Positions 7,003 through 58,108 of a stretch of DNA of 64,000 bases are shown in pieces. Within the stretch, counting starts at the first letter, position 1. Each line of letters opens with the position of its first letter. Made by a program: the position numbers and the translations under genes. The notes below the pieces were generated by a model. It was not told the origin of the DNA. It saw only the letters and a list, made by a program, of their open reading frames with translations, and did not search any database. Source of the stretch: Burkholderiales bacterium (GTDB lineage Bacteria; Pseudomonadota; Gammaproteobacteria; Burkholderiales; Burkholderiaceae_C); contig JAECRO010000010.1 in the NCBI GenBank assembly GCA_016000195.1, forward strand, positions 1-64,000, given 5' to 3'.

Positions 7003-8586
7003 ATGACCATGCCCCACGATTTTGATGTCCTGATTGTCGGCAGCGGCCTGGCCGGCCTGTCCGCCGCGCTGCACCTGGCGCCCACGCACCGCGTGGCCGT
7101 AATCACCAAACGCAGCATCAGCGACGGCTCCAGCGGCTGGGCGCAGGGCGGCATTGCGGCCGTGCTGGCCGAGGGCGACAGCTTCGCCGCGCACATCGAG
7201 GACACCCTGGTGGCCGGCGCCGGCCTGTGCGACCTGGCCACCACGCGCTTCGTGGTCGAGAACGCGCCCGCCTCGATTGGCTGGCTGCGCGCGCTGGGCG
7301 TGCCGTTTTCGCTCGAAGGCGAGCAGCTGCACCTGACGCGCGAAGGCGGCCACGGCGCGCGCCGCATCGCCCACGTCACCGACGCCACCGGCGCAGCCGT
7401 GCAGCGCACGCTGATCGACGTGGTGCGGGCCACGCCCGGCATCACGGTGTTTGAAGACCATACGCTGGTCGATGTGATCACCTCGCGCAAGCTGGGCTTG
7501 CCCGGCCCGCAGCGCTGCCTGGGCCTGTACGCGCTGGACGAGACGACCGACGAGGTGCTGACCTTTCGCGCGCCGCAGACCATCCTGGCCACGGGCGGCG
7601 CGGGCAAGGTGTATCTCTACACCACGAATCCCGACACCGCCACCGGCGACGGCATCGCGGCGGCCTGGCGCGCCGGCTGCCGCGTCTCCAACCTCGAATT
7701 CATCCAGTTCCACCCCACCTGCCTGTACCACCCGCTGGCCAAGTCCTACCTGATCAGCGAAGCGGTGCGCGGCGAAGGCGGGCGGCTCTTGCTGCCCGAC
7801 GGCACGCGCTTCATGCTGGACCACGACGTGCGCGCCGAACTGGCGCCGCGCGACGTGGTGGCCCGGGCCATCGACTACGAGATGAAAAAGCGCGGCCTGG
7901 ACTGCGTGTACCTCGACATCTCGCACCAGAGCCCGGAGTTTTTGCACGAGCACTTTCCCAACATCCTGGCGCGCTGCGCCGAGCTGGGCATCGACATCAC
8001 GACCCAGCCGATTCCGGTGGTGCCGGCCGCGCACTACACCTGCGGCGGCGTGCTGACCGACCTGGCCGGCCGCACCGACGTGCCGGGGCTGTTCGCCGTG
8101 GGCGAGACCGCCTGCACCGGACTGCACGGCGCCAACCGGCTGGCGAGCAACTCGCTGCTCGAATGCATGGTGTTCGCGCGCGCCGCCGCCCAGGTCATCG
8201 CCGCCGCGCCGGCCGTAGCGCTGCCCGATCTGCCGCAATGGGACGACAGCCGCGTCACCGACGCCGACGAGGCGGTGGTGATCTCGCACAACTGGGACGA
8301 GCTGCGCCGCTTCATGTGGGACTACGTGGGCATCGTGCGCACCAACAAGCGGCTGGAGCGCGCCGCGCACCGCATCACGCTGCTGCAGGCCGAGATCAAC
8401 GAGTTCTACGCGCACTTCCACGTCACGCGCGACCTGCTGGAGCTGCGCAACCTGGTGCAGGTGGCCGAACTGATCGTGCGCTCGGCCCAGCTGCGCCGCG
8501 AAAGCCGGGGCCTGCATTTCAGCCGCGACTACCCGGAACTGGCGGCGCCGGCGGCGGCGACCATTTTGGTGCCGCCGGTGGCCTGA
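7003..8586 (+). CDS. nadB: L-aspartate oxidase
   Basis: NadB oxidises L-aspartate to iminoaspartate, the first step of NAD synthesis, using FAD in the cytoplasm. The 527-residue protein has an N-terminal dinucleotide motif [15 protein letters not shown] and the [13 protein letters not shown] segment. It also has the FAD-contact region [19 protein letters not shown] and a C-terminal helical domain of the succinate dehydrogenase/fumarate reductase flavoprotein family. nadA and nadC lie 4-6 kb away on the other strand, so the window holds the whole de novo quinolinate pathway, though not as one operon. Confidence 0.96.
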
Positions 8587-8620
8587 GTGCGGCGCCTGAC
8601 CCGATTTTATGGATGAAATC

Positions 8621-8670
8621 GGCCTTCTGCGCACGCCAGTCATGCGCAAGCAGCTCCTCTTTTAATAGCA
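8621..8670 (-). repeat. repeat Y copy, nadB-DTW gene intergenic
   Basis: On the minus strand it reads GCTATTAAAAGAGGAGCTG followed by CTTGCGCATGACTGGCGTGCGCAGAAGGCC as two stems. It lies between two genes transcribed in the same direction. Confidence 0.7.
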
Positions 8671-8688
8671 GTCAGACTACATTCCGCC

Positions 8689-9318
8689 ATGACGCAACCC
8701 TTTCCGGCCAAACGCCCGGCTTGCGCCACCTGCCTGCGCCCGCAAAGCGCCTGCATCTGCCAGTGGATCGCGCCCGTGGCGCATGAAGTCGAGGTGCTGA
8801 TCCTGCAGCATCCGCTGGAAGTCAGCAACGCCAAGGGCAGCGCGCGGCTGCTGCACCTGAGCCTGCCGCGCAGCCGGCTGGTGACGGGCGAAGTGTTCGA
8901 CCTGCCGGCCCTGCTGGGCGCGCCGCCCGGATCCGGCCCCGCCAGGCAGTCGATCCTGCTGTACCCGGACACGCCGCAGGACCAGGCGCCAGACCTGTCG
9001 CCGCCGCCCCGGCTGGCGCCCGCGCTGCTGCGCGAGCCGTCGCAACTGCGCCTGATCGTGCTGGACGGCACCTGGCGCAAGAGCCGCAAGATGCTCTACC
9101 GCAACCCGCTCCTGCAGCAACTGCCGCGCCTGTCGCTGCAGGACATGCCGGCGTCGCACTACCTGATCCGCAAGGCGCACCGGCCCGACCAGCTGTCCAC
9201 GCTGGAGGCGACTTGCGCCGCGCTGGCGCAACTGGAAGGCGGCGCGGAACGCTTCGAGCCTTTGCTGGCGGCGTTTGACGGCTTTGTGGCGCAGCAGCTG
9301 GGCTATCGGGCAGGGTAG
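8689..9318 (+). CDS. DTW-domain tRNA-uridine aminocarboxypropyltransferase
   Basis: This 209-residue protein has the family layout. An N-terminal zinc-type cysteine cluster reads CATCLRPQSACIC, followed by VEVLILQHPLE and the namesake motif LDGTWRKSRKML. The DTW family (E. coli TapT/YfiP) adds an aminocarboxypropyl group from SAM to uridine 47 of tRNA. Here the D-x-T-W core reads DGTW, as in that group. No operon partner is evident. Confidence 0.88.
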   Translation: MTQPFPAKRPACATCLRPQSACICQWIAPVAHEVEVLILQHPLEVSNAKGSARLLHLSLPRSRLVTGEVFDLPALLGAPPGSGPARQSILLYPDTPQDQAPDLSPPPRLAPALLREPSQLRLIVLDGTWRKSRKMLYRNPLLQQLPRLSLQDMPASHYLIRKAHRPDQLSTLEATCAALAQLEGGAERFEPLLAAFDGFVAQQLGYRAG

Positions 9319-9437
9319 TTTCGGATGCTCTATGGCATGGATGAGCGCCCGCTTCGCAGCGGGAGCAGTCATTCATCCTTGCTACTTGAACTACTGAGTT
9401 CGGCCAGGAGCGGACGTCTAGATGGCCGCACTGCGGC

Positions 9438-10169
9438 TCACACCGATGCAGGCGACTCGGTGATGACCTCTAATAGCCGTCGCCGAACCCTGGTGGCCAT
9501 TGAAGATTGCGCCGACGGATGATGTATCCGGTAGCAGCGATACCTGCCGTAGAGCTCGAACTCCCATAAATGCTTTTTTGGTATGCCTTCATCTTCCCAG
9601 TTGCGCCGACCTTCGCACACTTTGGCTTCCCCAGCAATCGGGAAGAAATCGCGCCTGACTCCGACCGAGTCCATGCCGTTCGCGAAGACGATCACGTCAG
9701 GCTGAAAGTGCTCAATTTGCGCGTCCAGCAGGAGCTTGGAAACAAGCTTGACCATCGGAAGGTGAGAGGAGCGACGCGGGTCTCCCCCCATTGAATCAAA
9801 GCAGAAGAGGTTTGAGTAGATCAGGCCGCCTTGCCCGCATTTCTTCGCCAAGCGCTTCATGAAGTGAAAGAATGTGTCAGGTCGCGCCGGCTTCGCCATT
9901 TTCTCGGTGAAGAACTTCCTGTGTTTCACAAGCGCAGCGGCCACATACGCCTCGGGGCTGCCGCCTTCGAACGGTACGCGCCAGCCGTGCCCACCAAACT
10001 CCCGACCGATGACCATGATCCGGGGAGACCCAGGGTCTGTGGGGCCACTCACTAAGAATGGGCTGGAGAGCCTTCCAGATTCGTCTGCTGTGCGATCCAG
10101 GTACCCGGGATCGATGTCAGCAAGAATTGCGACGTACCGTTTTTCGAGGGATTCGTTCGGAGATGCCAT
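9438..10169 (-). CDS. hypothetical protein with uracil-DNA-glycosylase-like features
   Basis: This 243-residue protein (start MASPNESLEKRY at 10169) is not firmly recognised. Three segments recall the uracil-DNA glycosylase fold. RIMVIGREFGGHGW would be a glycine-rich first motif. FQPDVIVFANGMDSVG resembles the central strand. The late YRIHHPSAQSS resembles the HPS motif that inserts into DNA. The usual GQDPYH-type catalytic residues are absent, so glycosylase activity is not established. The DNA looks less GC-rich than its neighbours, consistent with acquisition by transfer. It stands alone between convergent and tandem housekeeping genes. Confidence 0.7.
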   Translation of the reverse strand: MASPNESLEKRYVAILADIDPGYLDRTADESGRLSSPFLVSGPTDPGSPRIMVIGREFGGHGWRVPFEGGSPEAYVAAALVKHRKFFTEKMAKPARPDTFFHFMKRLAKKCGQGGLIYSNLFCFDSMGGDPRRSSHLPMVKLVSKLLLDAQIEHFQPDVIVFANGMDSVGVRRDFFPIAGEAKVCEGRRNWEDEGIPKKHLWEFELYGRYRCYRIHHPSAQSSMATRVRRRLLEVITESPASV

Positions 10170-50325: not shown

Positions 50326-51363
50326 TCAGCATTCGAACTGCGGATGCAACTGGCGGATGCGGTTCATGGCCCGTCCGGCGGCGGCGGTGCGGGTTTCCAC
50401 GCCCAGCTTGGCATAGACGCGCTCCAGGTGTTTCTTCACGGTTGCCGGGCTGGCGCCCAGGATGTCGCCAATGTCGCGGTTGACCTTTCCCTTGACCACC
50501 CAGTACAGCACCTCGGCCTCCCGGGCGGTGAGATTGAAGCTCAGGCTGATGGCCTCGACCACCGCATCGTCCGAAATTTCACGCATCACGATCAGCCAGT
50601 CGCCGCCGCTGTCGCTGTCATCGGTTTGCTGGTGCAGCCGGAACGTCAGGCGGCGCGGCCCCTGCTCGATGGTCAGGCGCGGCGGCTCGATCTGGCGCTC
50701 GGCGTCGGCCAGGTGGCGGCGCAGCCAGTCCAGCACCGGCGCGGGCGTTTGCGGCGCCGTGGTGCCGTAGTAGCGCATCAGCAGTTCACGCGCCAGCGGC
50801 GTCTGCCAGATCAGCCGGCCATCGCCTTTTCCATCGGCGTTCATGCGCACGGTCATGCTGGCGTAGCCAAACGCATCGAGCGCATTGCGCGCCTGGCCCG
50901 CCTGCCGCGCCTCCTGCCGGGCGCGGCGCGCGCCCTGCAGGTGCACGCCCATGCGCGCCATGACTTCCTTGGGCTTGATCGGCTTGGTCACATAGTCCAC
51001 ACCGCCGGCCTGCAGGGCGGCCACCAGGTGCTCGGTTTCGGTCAGCCCGGTCATGAAGATGATGGGAATGTGCGCGGTTTCCGGCATCGCCTTGAGTCGC
51101 CTTGCCACTTCAAAGCCATCCATGCCCGGCATCATGGCGTCGAGCAGCACGATGTCGGGCACCGCCTGGCGGGCGCGCTGCAGCGCGGCTTCACCGCTGG
51201 TGGCCACCAGCACGGTGTAGCCCGACTCATCAAGCGCGTCATGCAGCACCGCCAGGTTGTCGGGCACGTCGTCAACGATCAGCACCACGTCGCTGTTGGC
51301 GCGGTCCAGCGTGCGGTCCAGGCGGCTGTCCGGCATCGGGCTGGGTTCAGGCATCTTGTTCAT
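50326..51363 (-). CDS. two-component response regulator, receiver plus LuxR HTH
   Basis: A 345-residue regulator. The receiver domain (about 25-145) contains VLIVDDVPDNLAVLHDAL, phospho-acceptor Asp in IVLLDAMMPGMDG and VDYVTKPIKP. A middle region of about 130 residues has no clear family. The C-terminal LuxR helix-turn-helix is FNLTAREAEVLYWVVKGKVN to SPATVKKHLERVYAKLGVET. Start 51363 overlaps the kinase gene end by 17 bp, so the two are coupled and almost surely partners. It probably controls genes near the urease operon. Confidence 0.93.
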   Translation of the reverse strand: MNKMPEPSPMPDSRLDRTLDRANSDVVLIVDDVPDNLAVLHDALDESGYTVLVATSGEAALQRARQAVPDIVLLDAMMPGMDGFEVARRLKAMPETAHIPIIFMTGLTETEHLVAALQAGGVDYVTKPIKPKEVMARMGVHLQGARRARQEARQAGQARNALDAFGYASMTVRMNADGKGDGRLIWQTPLARELLMRYYGTTAPQTPAPVLDWLRRHLADAERQIEPPRLTIEQGPRRLTFRLHQQTDDSDSGGDWLIVMREISDDAVVEAISLSFNLTAREAEVLYWVVKGKVNRDIGDILGASPATVKKHLERVYAKLGVETRTAAAGRAMNRIRQLHPQFEC

Positions 51364-54300
51364 GGCCGGTTTCTTTCTGTGTGAGCTGGCTGGCCATGGC
51401 TTCAAAGCGGAATTGACGCGCCATCAGGCGCATCTCCTCGACAAAGGAAGCGGTGGCCGGTTGCTGCTTTTCAATGTCCGCCAGCTTGTTGAGGATGCCA
51501 CGGTAAAAGCCCAGATGGACGACTTCCAGCAGGCTGGCGAGCTGCAGCGCATTCGGCAGGACGCGCAGCGCCGGCAGGGCAACCACCGGGGCGGGGTTCG
51601 CTGCCGGGGCGTCATAGCGCCAGACCAGCCCCAGGCTGCGCTCCAGCCAGTCGATCAGCTCGGTATGGCGCAGCGGTTTCAGGATGAAATCCTCGGGGCG
51701 TATGCCCACGTCGTTGTCGAGCCCCTTGTCAAAGGCGTTGGCCGACACAATCGCCAGATGAATGCCGGCATGCCCCGCGCTGCGTATGCGGCGCAGCGTT
51801 TCCCAGCCGTCAATGCCGGCCATGGCCAGGTCCATGAAGATCACGTCGGGCCGATAGCCTGCCGCCAGCAAATCCAGGCAGTCGTGGCCGCTGGCGGCGG
51901 TGCGCAATTCAAACCCCATGGGCGCCAGCAATTGCACCAGCAGTTCGCGGTCGGGCTCTTCGTTGTCCACCACCAGCAGCTTGCGGCGCGGGCCTTCGCA
52001 CCCCTGCGGCCGGCGCCGGGCAGCCCGGACCTTGGTGTCAGGAAAGCCACCCGCCGCCAGATGCACTTCGGGCAGGAACAGCCGGATGCGAAACACCGAG
52101 CCCTTGCCCGGCGTGCTGGCTACCTTCATCTCGCCGCCCATCAGGTCGGTCAGCATCTTGGCAATCGTCAGCCCCAGGCCGGCGCCGGACGAGCAGCCCA
52201 CGCTCTGGCCGGCCGTGCTGCCGCGCGCAAAGGGCTCGAAAATCTTCTCCAGCTCGGTCGCGCTCATTCCGGGGCCGGTGTCCTCGATGTCGATATGCGC
52301 CATTTCGCGCGCATGGCGCACCCTGAAAGTAACCTGGCCCTCGGCGGTGAACTTGATGGCGTTGCCCAGCAGGTTGATGAGCACCTGGCGCACCCGCTGC
52401 TCATCGGCGCGCACCAGTTCGGGCAGATGGCCTGCAGCTTCAAAAACAAATCGCAGGCCCTTGGCGGCCGCCTGCAACTCGAACATGCCGGCCACCTCGT
52501 GCACGCAGTCGGCAAACTGCATCGGCCTGACATTGAGCGTCAGCTTGCCGGCCTCGATGCGGGCAATGTCCAGCGTGCCCTCGATCAGCGACAGCAAATG
52601 CTCGCCGCCGCGCTTGATGACGCTGACGGCCTGCTTGCGGTGCGGCGGAATGCTGGCGTCTTCGCCCATGAGCTGCGCGTAGCCCAGGATGCTGTTGAGC
52701 GGCGTTCGCAACTCGTGGCTGATGGCGCTGATGTAGCGGCTCTTGGCCTGGTTGGCCTGGTCGGCCACGCGCTTGGCCTGCTGCAGGGCTTCGTCGGTTT
52801 GCCGGTGCGACTCGATTTCCTGCATCAGCAGGTGCGTCTGGCGGTTCGATTCTTCCTGCGCCACCTGCCGGCTCTTGTGCGCCAGCACCAGCCACCAGGC
52901 GACCAGCCCGGCAATCACCAGCAGCGCCATGTAGGCCTTCAGAAAGCCCGAACGCAAGGCGGACCCGGACGCCGCCAGTTCCGCCAGCGAACTGCTCTCC
53001 TGACGGTACAGCAGGCCGAACAGCGTGGCCAGCAGCGGCACGATGACTAGCATCAGCAGCAGAAAATGGCTCAGCCCGTTGTCCAGAAAGGGCCAGGCCG
53101 GGCGCGGCAGCAGCCAGCGCAGCGCGGCCGACCACTGCGCCGACAGGCTGGCGTGGGGCTTGCACAAGTCGCCGCAACGCGCATCCAGCGTGCAGCACAG
53201 CGAGCAGATCGGCCCCTGGTAAGCCGGGCAATGCGCCATGTCCGGGCCTTCGTAGTCGCGCTCGCAAATCACGCAGCGCCGGGTGGCATGGCGCTTGTAG
53301 AGTCCCTCTGCGGCCGATGGAGCAGAACGGCGCGCAATGTAATAGCGCCCCTTCGTGGCCCAGGCAATCAGCGGCGCCGCCACGAACGCGGTCGTCATGG
53401 CAATCACGGCTGAAAAGGCCTGCGCCATCTCGCCGTACAGCCCCAGATGCGCCGTGATCGACAGCAGCGAAGCCAGCGCCATGGCGCCCACGCCGACCGG
53501 GTTGATGTCGTACAGATGGGCGCGCTTGAACTCGATGCCCGGCGGCGACAGGCCCAGCGGCTTGTTGACCACCAGATCGGCCACCACCGCCATGACCCAG
53601 GCAATCGCGATGTTGGAATACAGCCCCAGCACCTCGCCCAGCGCCTGGAACACGTTCATTTCCATCAGCATGAAGGCAATCGCGGTGTTGAACACCAGCC
53701 AGACCACCCGGCCCGGGTGGCTGTGCGTCAGGCGCGAGAAAAAATTCGACCAGGCCAGCGAGCCGGCATAGGCATTGGTCACATTGATCTTGAGCTGCGA
53801 AAGCACGACGAACAGCGCCGTCGCCCCGATGGCCCAGTCATAGTTGGGAAACACATATTCGTAGGCGGCCAGGTACATCTGGTTCGGGTCCACCGCCCGG
53901 TCCGGCGGCAGCATGTTGGAAATCGCCAGATAGGCCAGCAGCGCGCCGCCCAGCATCTTGACCACGCCCAAAACCACCCAGCCCGGCCCGCCGATCAGCA
54001 CCCCGGCCCACCAGCGCCAGCGATTGGCCTGGGTCTGCACCGGCATGAAGCGCAGATAGTCAGCCTGTTCGCCCATTTGGGTGATCAATGCAATGCCGAC
54101 CGTCAAAGCAGCACCAAAAAGGTGCAAATTGAATTCGCCGCTGCTCCCTTTTTCTCCTGCGTAGTTCACAACCCCTGAAAAAGCACCAGGAGCGTGCATA
54201 AAAACATACACAAAAGGCACCACCAGCATGATCAGCCACAAGGCTTGCGTCCAGCCCTGCAGCCGGCTGATGGTTGAAACCCCGTGCGTGACCAGCGGAA

Positions 54301-54874
54301 TCACGACCAGCGCGCAGGCCAGGTAGCCCCACCTGGGCGGAATGCCAAAAGCAAGCTCCAGCGCATAAGCCATGACGGCCGCCTCAAGCGCAAAGAAAAT
54401 GAAGGTGAAGGAGGCATAGATCAGCGAGGTCAGCGTCGAGCCGATGTAGCCGAAGCCCGCGCCACGCGTCAGCAAATCCATGTCCACACCGTAGCGCGCC
54501 GCGTAAATGCTGATGGGCAGGCCGGCCAGGAAAATGATCAGCCCCGTCGCCATGATGGCCCAGAAGGCATTGGTGAAGCCGTATTTCACCAGCAGCGTGG
54601 CGCCCACGGCTTCCAGAATCAGGAACGAGGCCGCGCCAAACGCGGTGTTGGCGACCCGGAACTCCGACCATTTGCGAAAGCGCTGCGGCGTGAAGCGCAG
54701 CGCGTAGTCTTCCATGGTTTCGCTGGCGACCCAGCTGTTGTAGTCGCGCCTGACCTTGATGATGCGCTGCACGGCCACCTCGGGCTCGGCGCTGGCGGTC
54801 CTGCCTGCATCCGGCGAGCCCGTGGGCATGCCCGGTCGGGGCGGTGGCGGCGAAGGCGTGGCGGTGGCGTCCAT
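51347..54874 (-). CDS. NCS1 permease-hybrid sensor histidine kinase fusion with cysteine-rich module
   Basis: A 1175-residue protein. Residues about 40-510 form a complete NCS1-type (cytosine/purine/uracil/allantoin) permease with about 12 membrane helices, including TRGAGFGYIGS and ITQMGEQADYLRF. A cysteine cluster follows with C534, C537, C549, C557, C560, C561, C567 and C571. Two more helices (about 604-623 and 645-662) lead to a coiled coil. The kinase HisKA has H720 in SHELRTPLNSILGY, followed by HATPase motifs and a receiver with D1015. The C-terminal 80 residues may be an Hpt-like helical region. The start ATG at 54874 is chosen because sequence upstream is only the shadow of ureA. It likely senses a nucleobase, allantoin or urea-related solute while or instead of transporting it; this is inference. 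Confidence 0.9.
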   Translation of the reverse strand: MDATATPSPPPPRPGMPTGSPDAGRTASAEPEVAVQRIIKVRRDYNSWVASETMEDYALRFTPQRFRKWSEFRVANTAFGAASFLILEAVGATLLVKYGFTNAFWAIMATGLIIFLAGLPISIYAARYGVDMDLLTRGAGFGYIGSTLTSLIYASFTFIFFALEAAVMAYALELAFGIPPRWGYLACALVVIPLVTHGVSTISRLQGWTQALWLIMLVVPFVYVFMHAPGAFSGVVNYAGEKGSSGEFNLHLFGAALTVGIALITQMGEQADYLRFMPVQTQANRWRWWAGVLIGGPGWVVLGVVKMLGGALLAYLAISNMLPPDRAVDPNQMYLAAYEYVFPNYDWAIGATALFVVLSQLKINVTNAYAGSLAWSNFFSRLTHSHPGRVVWLVFNTAIAFMLMEMNVFQALGEVLGLYSNIAIAWVMAVVADLVVNKPLGLSPPGIEFKRAHLYDINPVGVGAMALASLLSITAHLGLYGEMAQAFSAVIAMTTAFVAAPLIAWATKGRYYIARRSAPSAAEGLYKRHATRRCVICERDYEGPDMAHCPAYQGPICSLCCTLDARCGDLCKPHASLSAQWSAALRWLLPRPAWPFLDNGLSHFLLLMLVIVPLLATLFGLLYRQESSSLAELAASGSALRSGFLKAYMALLVIAGLVAWWLVLAHKSRQVAQEESNRQTHLLMQEIESHRQTDEALQQAKRVADQANQAKSRYISAISHELRTPLNSILGYAQLMGEDASIPPHRKQAVSVIKRGGEHLLSLIEGTLDIARIEAGKLTLNVRPMQFADCVHEVAGMFELQAAAKGLRFVFEAAGHLPELVRADEQRVRQVLINLLGNAIKFTAEGQVTFRVRHAREMAHIDIEDTGPGMSATELEKIFEPFARGSTAGQSVGCSSGAGLGLTIAKMLTDLMGGEMKVASTPGKGSVFRIRLFLPEVHLAAGGFPDTKVRAARRRPQGCEGPRRKLLVVDNEEPDRELLVQLLAPMGFELRTAASGHDCLDLLAAGYRPDVIFMDLAMAGIDGWETLRRIRSAGHAGIHLAIVSANAFDKGLDNDVGIRPEDFILKPLRHTELIDWLERSLGLVWRYDAPAANPAPVVALPALRVLPNALQLASLLEVVHLGFYRGILNKLADIEKQQPATASFVEEMRLMARQFRFEAMASQLTQKETGHEQDA

Positions 54875-55021
54875 GGAGGGATGGATGATAGGCAGACAGA
54901 AGTGAAAGGCCCACAATTGCTGCACCTTCTGTGCCACACAGGCGCGACGCCCGGTGGCCTTGCCCGAAAGCCGGTGGCACCAATCTTGCAATTTTAGATA
55001 TGCCGAACCCGAAAGAGCCCC
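54875..55021. promoter_or_regulatory. divergent promoter region, NCS1-kinase / ureA
   Basis: This 147-bp gap between the divergent kinase and ureA genes should carry both promoters and any operator for the LuxR-type regulator. No recognised box or palindrome stands out. Confidence 0.45.
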
Positions 55022-55324
55022 ATGGAATTGACTCCCCGCGAAAAAGACAAGCTGCTGATTTTTACAGCGTCCCTGCTGGCCGAGCGGCGCCGGGCGCGCG
55101 GCCTCAAGCTCAACTACCCCGAAGCCGTGGCTCTCATCAGCGCCGCCGTGATGGAAGGCGCGCGCGACGGCAAGACCGTGGCCCAGCTCATGAGCGAGGG
55201 CCGAACCATCCTGACCCGCGCCGACGTGATGGACGGCATCGCCGAGCTGATCCCCGACATCCAGGTCGAAGCCACCTTTCCCGACGGCACCAAGCTGGTC
55301 ACGGTGCATCAGCCGATTGTGTGA
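55022..55324 (+). CDS. ureA: urease subunit gamma
   Basis: A 100-residue urease gamma subunit. It has [40 protein letters not shown] and [20 protein letters not shown], complete and typical. The enzyme hydrolyses urea to ammonia and carbamate in the cytoplasm. It is the first gene of the ureAJBCEFG series in this window; ureD, usually just upstream, is absent here. Confidence 0.97.
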
Positions 55325-56357: not shown

Positions 56358-58108
56358 TGGCAAGCATTGGCAGACGCGCCTACGCGGAAATGTTCGGCCC
56401 CACCGTCGGCGACCGGCTGCGGCTGGCCGACACCGATTTGATGATTGAAGTTGAGGCTGACTACACGCTGCGCGCCGGCATGGGCTTGACCAGCGCCGAT
56501 GGACGCCCCATCGGCTACGGCGAAGAAGTCAAGTTCGGCGGCGGCAAGACGATTCGCGACGGCATGGCGCAGTCGCAAAGAACCAATGCCGAAGGCGCGA
56601 TGGACACGGTGATGACGAATGCGCTCATCCTCGACCACTGGGGCATCGTCAAGGCCGACATCGGCCTGAAGGGCGGGCGCATTGCCGCCATCGGCAAGGC
56701 CGGCAACCCGGACACGCAGCCGGGCGTGGACATCATCATCGGCCCGGGCACCGAGATCATCAGCTGCGAAGGCCTGCTGGTGACGGCCGGCGGCATCGAC
56801 TCGCACATCCATTTCATCTGCCCGCAGCAGATCGAGGAAGCGCTGACCTCGGGCGTGACCACCATGATGGGCGGCGGCACGGGACCGGCCACCGGCACCT
56901 TCGCCACCACCTGCACGCCGGGGCCGTGGAACATCGAGCGCATGCTGCAGGCCGCCGACGCCTTTCCGATGAACCTCGGCTTTCTGGGCAAGGGCAACGC
57001 CAGCCGGCCCGCCGCGCTGCACGAGCAGGTCAACGCGGGCGTGATCGGCCTCAAGCTGCACGAAGACTGGGGAACGACGCCAGCGGCCATCAGCAACTGC
57101 CTGGACGTGGCGGAAGAAACCGACGTGCAGGTGGCGATTCACAGCGACACGCTCAACGAATCAGGCTTTGTCGAAAACACCATTGCCGCGACCAAGGGGC
57201 GCAGTCTGTGCGCGTTTCACACCGAAGGCGCGGGCGGCGGCCATGCGCCCGACATTTTGCGCGTGGTCGGCGAGGCGAACTTTTTGCCGTCTTCGACCAA
57301 CCCGACCATGCCCTACACCGTCAACACGCTCGACGAGCATGTGGACATGCTGATGGTCTGCCACCACCTGGACCCGGCGATTGCCGAAGACCTGGCCTTT
57401 GCCGAAAGCCGCATCCGCAAGGAAACCATTGCCGCCGAGGACATCCTGCACGACCTGGGCGCGATCAGCATGATGTCCAGCGACAGCCAGGCCATGGGCC
57501 GCGTCGGCGAAGTCATCATCCGCACCTGGCAGAACGCGCACAAGATGAAGCAGCAGCGCGGCAAGCTGCCCGGCGACTCCGAGCGCCACGACAATTTCCG
57601 CGTCAAGCGCTATCTGGCCAAATACACCATCAACCCGGCAATTGCCCACGGCATCTCGCACGAGGTCGGCTCCATCGAAGTCGGCAAGTTCGCCGACCTG
57701 GTGGTCTGGAAACCGGCGTTTTTCGGCATCAAACCGTCCATCATCCTGAAAGGCGGGTTCATTGCCATGGCAGCCATGGGCGACCCGAACGCCTCGATCC
57801 CGACGCCGCAGCCGGTGCATTACCGGCCCATGTTCGGCGCGTTCGGCGGCGCGATTGCCAAGGGCTCGCTGACCTTTGTGTCGCAGGCCGGGCTGTCCGC
57901 CGGCATCAAGGAACGCTTCGGCCTGGCCAAGACGCTGAGCGCGGTAAAGAACATTCGCGGCGTGCGCAAGCAGCACATGATCCATAACGGCTACCTGCCG
58001 AAAATGGAAATCGACGCCCAGACCTACCTGGTGCGTGCCGACGGGCAACTGCTGACCTGCGAGCCGGCGACCAGCCTGCCGATGACGCAGCGCTACTTTT
58101 TGTTTTAA
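56357..58108 (+). CDS. ureC: urease subunit alpha
   Basis: The 583-residue catalytic subunit. The nickel-bridging carbamylated lysine is K233 in GLKLHEDWG. Nickel and active-site His are in [10 protein letters not shown] and the flap is near [21 protein letters not shown]-terminal [11 protein letters not shown] is typical. Compared with the Klebsiella enzyme there are about 16 extra residues near position 37-55 ([17 protein letters not shown]), a surface insertion. ATG at 56357 overlaps the ureB stop. Confidence 0.98.

Follow-up and report, generated by a model that had tools for sequence, protein, structure and literature searches.

The stretch of DNA examined here, called the window, comprises positions 1 to 64,000 of contig JAECRO010000010.1 (assembly GCA_016000195.1) from a Burkholderiales bacterium, 64,000 nucleotides in all. 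It encodes a hybrid sensor histidine kinase whose sensor half resembles an NCS1 permease, together with a LuxR-type partner response regulator, and both genes diverge from a urease operon (Table 1). This pair is probably a transceptor-type two-component system that senses urea or short amides and switches on their uptake. The system is genuine, occurs widely and shows a consistent tie to urea and amide uptake genes, and its family is without a name in the libraries and literature searched. The case is built on the domain architecture, the fold match, the gene linkage, a palindrome with matching recognition helices and a set of paralogue swaps, all read from sequence comparison. Neither an NCS1-kinase fusion nor this regulator is described in the titles and abstract openings returned by full-text literature searches; subscription papers lay mostly outside this scope and prior work is possible.

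Gene neighbours were called with tblastn and set thresholds, the 15 reference genes coming from three plasmid records, and divergent relatives were possibly missed. In an even sample of the phylum, 71 family members minus those of the window and of genome G151 gave 69 loci (loci of this and the other samples bear L numbers below), and genes of the ure, urt, fmd or amiE type lay within 10 kb in 65 of them, with a divergent urtA in 43 and a divergent ureA in seven. The link to nitrogen genes proposed in an earlier, sequence-only reading of this DNA was thus borne out, and the homologues do not lie mostly far from such genes. Of the remaining four loci, L254 and L265 are on short stretches. A scan of genome contigs gave at least 598 stretches, 594 of them confirmed; among the best 80 of these at least 594, the same genes were within 10 kb in 66 and ureA was divergent in 51. 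All eight plasmid loci examined, from 40 listed, were linked: seven diverge from urtABCDE, four of these with an annotated formamidase nearby, and one diverges from ureA-hupE-ureBCEFG. The kinase-regulator pair commonly diverges from urtABCDE-fmdA-fmdB-amiE. In the sole neighbourhood control, a small one of six loci of other permeases, a urtA-like match was found in one (L200) and none in five. For the kinases of Zoogloea-, Cognatazoarcus- and Denitromonas-like members (L095, L097, L100, L102, L103 and L118), the 10 kb around them yielded none of the ure, urt, fmd or amiE genes; their targets may lie elsewhere in the genome, as in the genome of the window. Pfam searches of open reading frames beside urt-less homologues offered no explanation, the frames having been picked crudely and several being probably antisense.

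Loci in which a kinase-less paralogue of the sensor half replaces UrtABCDE provide the best evidence for the ligand class, urea and amides. The kinase diverges from permease-fmdA-fmdB-amiE in four loci, namely L151 from the class sample and three from the order of genome G307, in which 40 of 85 genomes match the permease profile. No urt gene was found in these four loci, and the permease occupies the place that urtABCDE holds before fmdA-fmdB-amiE in other genomes. The palindrome described below is present in all four gaps, three times exactly and once, in L314, with one mismatch. In seven loci of the G307 order a kinase-less permease gene follows ureABCEFG, and a NicO-type nickel transporter gene comes next to it at the end of the urease operon in six (L152, L307, L308, L309, L313 and L315). 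The 11 kinase-less rows of the tree form one clade (SH-aLRT 99), although its root rests on very long outgroups.

The partner regulator is predicted to bind a palindromic operator at its target genes. The dyad TACGT-N6-ACGTA was found in 9 of 13 urtA-kinase gaps, against a maximum of 2 in shuffles. It was exact in 48 of 222 unique 450-bp regions upstream of the permease/kinase gene and in 1 of 495 random stretches from the same loci (0.2%); with up to two mismatches, it was found in 86 of the 222 and in 3.4% of the 495, an upstream count that is partly circular since the 13 discovery gaps lie among the 222. Comamonadaceae-like loci carry TACGCC-N4-GGCGTA at 60-235 bp before urtA. The joint form TACGYC-N4-GRCGTA was fixed after these sites had been seen, and its match in the window's own genome is the independent test. 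Exact copies of this form number 47 across 192 loci (3.68 Mb; here and below, the loci behind the counts of operators, neighbours and sigma-54 elements include near-identical ones), against one for the reversed pattern, and 46 of the 47 lie no more than 450 bp upstream of urtA, the permease/kinase gene, fmdA or ureJ. An exact copy precedes 36 of 104 urtA and 2 of 50 fmdA genes, and none of 88 ureA, 81 ureC, 63 ureG or 125 regulator genes. The 3.09-Mb genome of the window holds a single exact copy, on another contig and 112 bp before the likely start of urtA; this urtA, followed by urtBCDE, is the only one found in that genome at E≤1e-20. The upstream sequence that bears the predicted operator is TACGCCACCCGGCGTA. 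By our estimate, a chance copy would be so placed about once in 10,000.

The recognition helices of the regulators agree with these two site types. Among regulators whose matches reached the C-terminus at more than 30% identity, the motif is RT[VI]NKHLE near TACGTC sites (n=8) and [AM]TVKKHLE near TACGCC sites (15 distinct regulators at 16 loci). The window regulator, with ATVKKHLE within the stretch SPATVKKHLE, is of the type predicted from the operator copy of its genome. The sequence-only reading had envisaged a permease-sensor that controls urease. Direct regulation of urease through the partner found no support and was set aside: the predicted operator precedes urtA, the promoter of ureA is sigma-54-like, and the ureA-kinase gap of the window contains no operator with up to two mismatches, in line with the counts above. 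A dyad search of 79 ureA-type regions gave no result that clearly exceeded shuffles (best 5 against 4). The ureA gaps of L049 and L075 each carry a copy with two mismatches.

The kinase and regulator have the expected two-component make-up, with HisKA, HATPase and receiver domains in the kinase and receiver (27-137) and GerE (277-329) domains in the partner, as detected by Pfam. A same-strand regulator follows the kinase in 66 of the 69 phylum-sample loci. The gene limits claimed earlier were confirmed, as were the 17-bp overlap of kinase and regulator (51347-51363), the 147 bp between position 54874 of the kinase gene and the ureA start at 55022, and the divergence from ureA. The eight-cysteine cluster from C534 to C571 and the two additional helices before the kinase were also found as described (residue numbers are those of the 1175-amino-acid protein). 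Residues 520-705, which contain them, match no Pfam family above cut-off.

The permease half is read as an outlying NCS1 branch on the basis of its fold and of bridging homologues, Pfam being blind to it. In the window this domain has no Pfam match at E≤10, so that the curated cut-off of PF02133 is not reached, and no NCBIfam match at E≤1; PF02133 has no match at E≤0.001 across the window's genome, and PDB sequence profiles gave nothing for the domain. The AlphaFold2 model, made from a 64-row alignment, has a mean predicted local distance difference test (pLDDT) of 76.3 and a predicted template modelling score of 0.76. In Foldseek searches against the PDB, ranks 1 to 5 are all NCS1 proteins (Mhp1 or CodB), with an E of 9.5e-9 for Mhp1 and a TM-score of 0.74-0.78, normalised by target length, for CodB; SLC5-type structures come below NCS1, the best being SGLT2 at rank 9. 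A profile of 16 permease halves aligned with five stand-alone permeases at a probability of 99.9 in hhalign, a comparison made solely with these five, which were themselves matches of the same profile. Three of these five pass the PF02133 cut-off, L201 matches it below cut-off, and L203 has no PF02133 match but an NCS1 match below cut-off in NCBIfam; a sixth weak profile match, L205, is a sodium:alanine symporter and was excluded. L152, a kinase-less protein encoded in a urease operon, shares 46% identity with the window domain and passes PF02133 with 31.8 bits (cut-off 23.5).

Given an NCS1-like fold next to urease, the sensor half could be a permease for nucleobases, hydantoins or allantoin that controls urease and reports on the purine or pyrimidine salvage leading to urea, and the CodB and Mhp1 structures do bind cytosine and hydantoins (PMC9379551). 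The residues argue otherwise. Among the CodB contacts given in that paper, Q105 and W108 correspond to T157 and F160 in the window kinase (the W108 position is Leu in L047), and the aromatic F204 of transmembrane helix 6 corresponds to a non-aromatic residue whichever gap placement is chosen, so that the aromatic substrate sandwich of W108 and F204 is not kept. The Na2 side-chain ligands T278 and T279 are replaced by K362 and I363. Nor were salvage genes found: codA, codB, allW and ybbY homologues were not found in the 192 loci at E≤1e-10, at which two distant allB-like matches occur, and the exact operator is found before none of 88 ureA genes. Salvage sensing is quite unlikely and was set aside on the pocket residues and the neighbours. 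Of the 'whole nucleobase/allantoin-type NCS1 permease' proposed earlier, the NCS1-like fold was upheld by Foldseek and a bridging homologue, and the nucleobase/allantoin type was not, since the comparison with characterised NCS1 members left neither the CodB contacts nor Na2 in place. The Na2-site lysine is found in all 198 distinct long members (187 by pattern, the other 11 by inspection); of 11 distinct kinase-less proteins, all but the distant L200 have it. The proton-driven CbrA is likewise reported to have a lysine at Na2 (PMC13022988), which makes a sodium-independent coupling of the permease half plausible. The L200 protein (7783-9438, plus strand), a stand-alone NCS1 permease of more remote kinship (E 1.6e-47 with the A3 profile), has Arg in place of this Lys.

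The cysteine module might instead be the real input, sensing redox or a metal (nickel for urease, zinc or iron), with the permease as an anchor or modulator. All eight cysteines are invariant in an alignment of 13 diverse homologues, and each of the 198 distinct untruncated long members has precisely the spacing C-x2-C-x11-C-x7-C-x2-C-C-x5-C-x3-C. The module profile, for which up to 22 candidates per genome were scored, matched in 45 of 299 genomes, and each of the 49 matches adjoins a match of the permease profile. The NicO gene beside the kinase-less paralogue in urease operons would also fit a nickel input. This explanation is nevertheless rather unlikely, because the module is no less conserved at loci that have urt-fmd-amiE but no urease as neighbours and because the permease core is strongly conserved as well. 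Moreover, the kinase-less proteins of urease operons have lost four of the eight cysteines, contrary to a nickel role there, and retain only the two CxxC pairs, which suggests that the module consists of two four-cysteine sites, putatively C534, C537, C557 and C560 for one and C549, C561, C567 and C571 for the other; the kinase-less proteins beside amidase genes (n=4) retain all eight. PDB sequence profiles gave the module only weak C2H2-finger matches (best E 0.016). A sensor of nitrogen status or of the ammonium product that adjusts Urt uptake would agree with the sigma-54-like promoters, which suggest nitrogen control, and with the fact that the products of all neighbours include ammonia. 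We regard it as very unlikely, as the four loci in which a paralogous permease replaces the urea/amide transporter point to the substrate.

The gap between the kinase gene and ureA contains two sigma-54-like elements, one facing each gene. Their window-wide count at one mismatch (3) equals chance, and their support is therefore comparative. Across 72 unique ure-type gaps, an element points toward the kinase in 50, toward ureA in 29 and both ways in 22, compared with shuffle means of 1.9, 2.1 and 0.06, respectively; the pattern was fixed after a gapped-word search of ureA-type regions, whose common words are sigma-54-like. Within the urease genes, the window also gave a match to Rfam RF02514 (5' ureB small RNA) at 56552-56840 on the minus strand (116.6 bits), antisense to ureC, which probably reflects conserved urease coding sequence rather than a demonstrated antisense RNA.

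Table 1. Features of the kinase-regulator locus and the adjoining ureA gene in the window.
Feature	Coordinates	Strand	Basis
Hybrid sensor histidine kinase with NCS1-like permease sensor half	51347..54874	-	1175 amino acids, stop codon included in range; no internal stop
Partner response regulator, REC + GerE/LuxR helix-turn-helix	50326..51363	-	345 amino acids; translation, Pfam
NCS1-like (LeuT-fold) permease domain, residues ~36-515	53330..54769	-	AlphaFold2, Foldseek, hhalign
Eight-cysteine module C534-C571	53162..53275	-	Invariance and exact Cys spacing across members
Two long helices, probable transmembrane pair running into signalling helix, residues ~591-704	52763..53104	-	AlphaFold2 secondary structure
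HisKA, residues 710-776	52547..52747	-	PF00512, E 1.3e-16
HATPase_c, residues 824-934	52073..52405	-	PF02518, E 8e-27
Kinase receiver domain (REC), residues 967-1076	51647..51976	-	PF00072, E 8.8e-15
ureA, first gene of divergent cluster ureA-ureJ/hupE-ureB-ureC-ureE-ureF-ureG	55022..55324	+	tblastn to annotated Mitsuaria genes
Sigma-54-like -24/-12 element TGGCAC-N5-GTGCA facing kinase	54921..54936	-	1 mismatch
Sigma-54-like -24/-12 element TGGCAC-N5-TTGCA facing ureA	54975..54990	+	0 mismatches

Of 397 phylum genomes, 68 had a match to the permease profile at E≤1e-3; 65 of these hold the 71 family members, and the other three contain remote permeases only. In the class sample 18 of 370 genomes matched at E≤1e-20, and among relatives 29 of 61 at E≤1e-10. 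Named records with the family include Rhizobium, Ensifer, Paraburkholderia and Comamonadaceae. Besides hybrid kinases, a PAS kinase without a receiver domain is present in L149 (outputs were read by eye), and L150 and L146 have the sensor unit without any output domain. In L148 (genome G406) the permease-cysteine-helix input is apparently fused to PAS, GGDEF and EAL-like sequence, again as read by eye, which suggests an input of urea or amides into cyclic-di-GMP signalling. The 894- and 899-amino-acid frames of L206 and L207 are shorter kinases, apparently without a receiver, that branch off separately and deeply in the tree. They lie upstream of fmdA-fmdB, and neither locus yielded a urt gene. 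A broader and more tentative proposal, which we consider possible but hold at somewhat less than even confidence, is that this widespread NCS1-derived family binds urea and short-chain amides. Its kinase-less members would be secondary urea/amide permeases and its kinase-fused members true transceptors, with alternating access, the Na2 lysine and a private two-metal eight-cysteine module as input; the same unit would also be joined to PAS-GGDEF-EAL.

Several observations weigh against a urea/amide transceptor of NCS1 descent. The alignment at transmembrane helix 6 is gap-ambiguous, the cysteine module was modelled at a block pLDDT of only 57-69, and non-NCS1 LeuT folds follow closely from Foldseek rank 6 (BasC, E 4.9e-6, against 1.5e-6 at rank 5). 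The design of the hhalign comparison belongs here too, as do two kinase-less relatives: the amide-type L150 has no Pfam match and L152 no NCS1 match in NCBIfam at E≤1. Pfam recognised no HPt domain in the kinase or regulator. Two phylum-sample loci, L216 and L249, are real exceptions to the linkage, and 14 of the best 80 contig loci have no ure, urt, fmd or amiE gene within 10 kb, eight of them flanked by 3 kb or more on each side and six with one flank shorter than 3 kb. The window itself yielded no urt gene. The exact palindrome is present at only 36 of 104 urtA genes, and the reversed control pattern also occurs once in the window's genome. The helix types follow lineage and therefore do not represent many independent events, so that the match of helix and site types may be one evolutionary change. 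Finally, activation of a sigma-54 promoter by a LuxR-type regulator would be unexpected, and the adjacency of kinase and ureA is therefore accounted for only indirectly.

For the proposed urea/amide transceptor we infer the ligand, the direction of signalling, the metal content, activation by the regulator and transport by the sensor, as follows. The NCS1-derived LeuT-fold domain would bind urea or an amide (formamide or acetamide, for example) and perhaps still transport it. Motion in this core would be passed through the invariant eight-cysteine, probably two-metal, module and the helix pair to HisKA/HATPase, and the kinase would set the phosphorylation of its LuxR-type partner. Under this control, the partner would bind TACGYC-N4-GRCGTA before urtABCDE and activate uptake; in other lineages the predicted operator precedes a urt-formamidase-amidase operon or the kinase-less paralogous permease. 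In the lineage of the window, the kinase gene and the urease operon diverge from sigma-54-like promoters, and nitrogen limitation would therefore supply sensor and urease, while urea itself would trigger uptake.

The idea of a transporter-kinase, for which the sequence-only reading had pointed to CbrA, is supported. The SLC5/STAC transceptor kinases CbrA, CrbS and RpuS similarly couple a transporter domain and a histidine kinase by means of a linker module, CbrA shares the lysine that here substitutes an Na2 ligand, and CrbS and RpuS have LuxR-type partners, as does the window kinase. These partners are reported to need repeats near transporter or catabolic genes (PMC5715377, PMC9100948, PMC13022988). 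The present system differs in its NCS1-like transporter, in the eight-cysteine module and two helices that apparently stand in place of STAC, in its predicted urea/amide ligands, and in its palindrome, which is not the ACTU motif of CrbR. CodB and Mhp1 are the closest solved folds, and the family matches stand-alone NCS1 proteins by profile; unlike CodB and Mhp1, the window domain has lost the aromatic sandwich and the Na2 hydroxyls, is fused to signalling domains and lies below Pfam detection. The AmtE-type ammonium transporter-GGDEF/EAL protein of Azoarcus olearius, a likely transceptor (PMC8467165), also fuses a nitrogen transporter to a signalling output. It belongs to the ammonium transporter family and has a cyclic-di-GMP output, whereas the output here is a kinase, L148 with its apparent GGDEF-EAL aside. 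A urt-like cluster linked to fmdA/amiE in Bradyrhizobium was proposed to carry amides (PMC3098086), and the urtABCDE operon of Ectopseudomonas was listed with LuxR-family two-component genes (PMC13296017). Such clusters resemble those from which the kinase-regulator pair diverges, but the parts of this literature consulted name no transporter-like sensor, operator or ligand.

The experimentally studied transporter-kinase fusions in the literature examined are of the SLC5/STAC kind, and the present family would be a second kind, with another transporter and another linker. Urea and amide uptake genes gain a predicted dedicated regulator, a testable operator and candidate secondary urea/amide permeases. 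Paralogues with and without the kinase, occurring in pairs, lend themselves to comparison of how a transporter turns into a receptor. Bacteria may thus read urea and small amides by reusing a transporter as a sensor.

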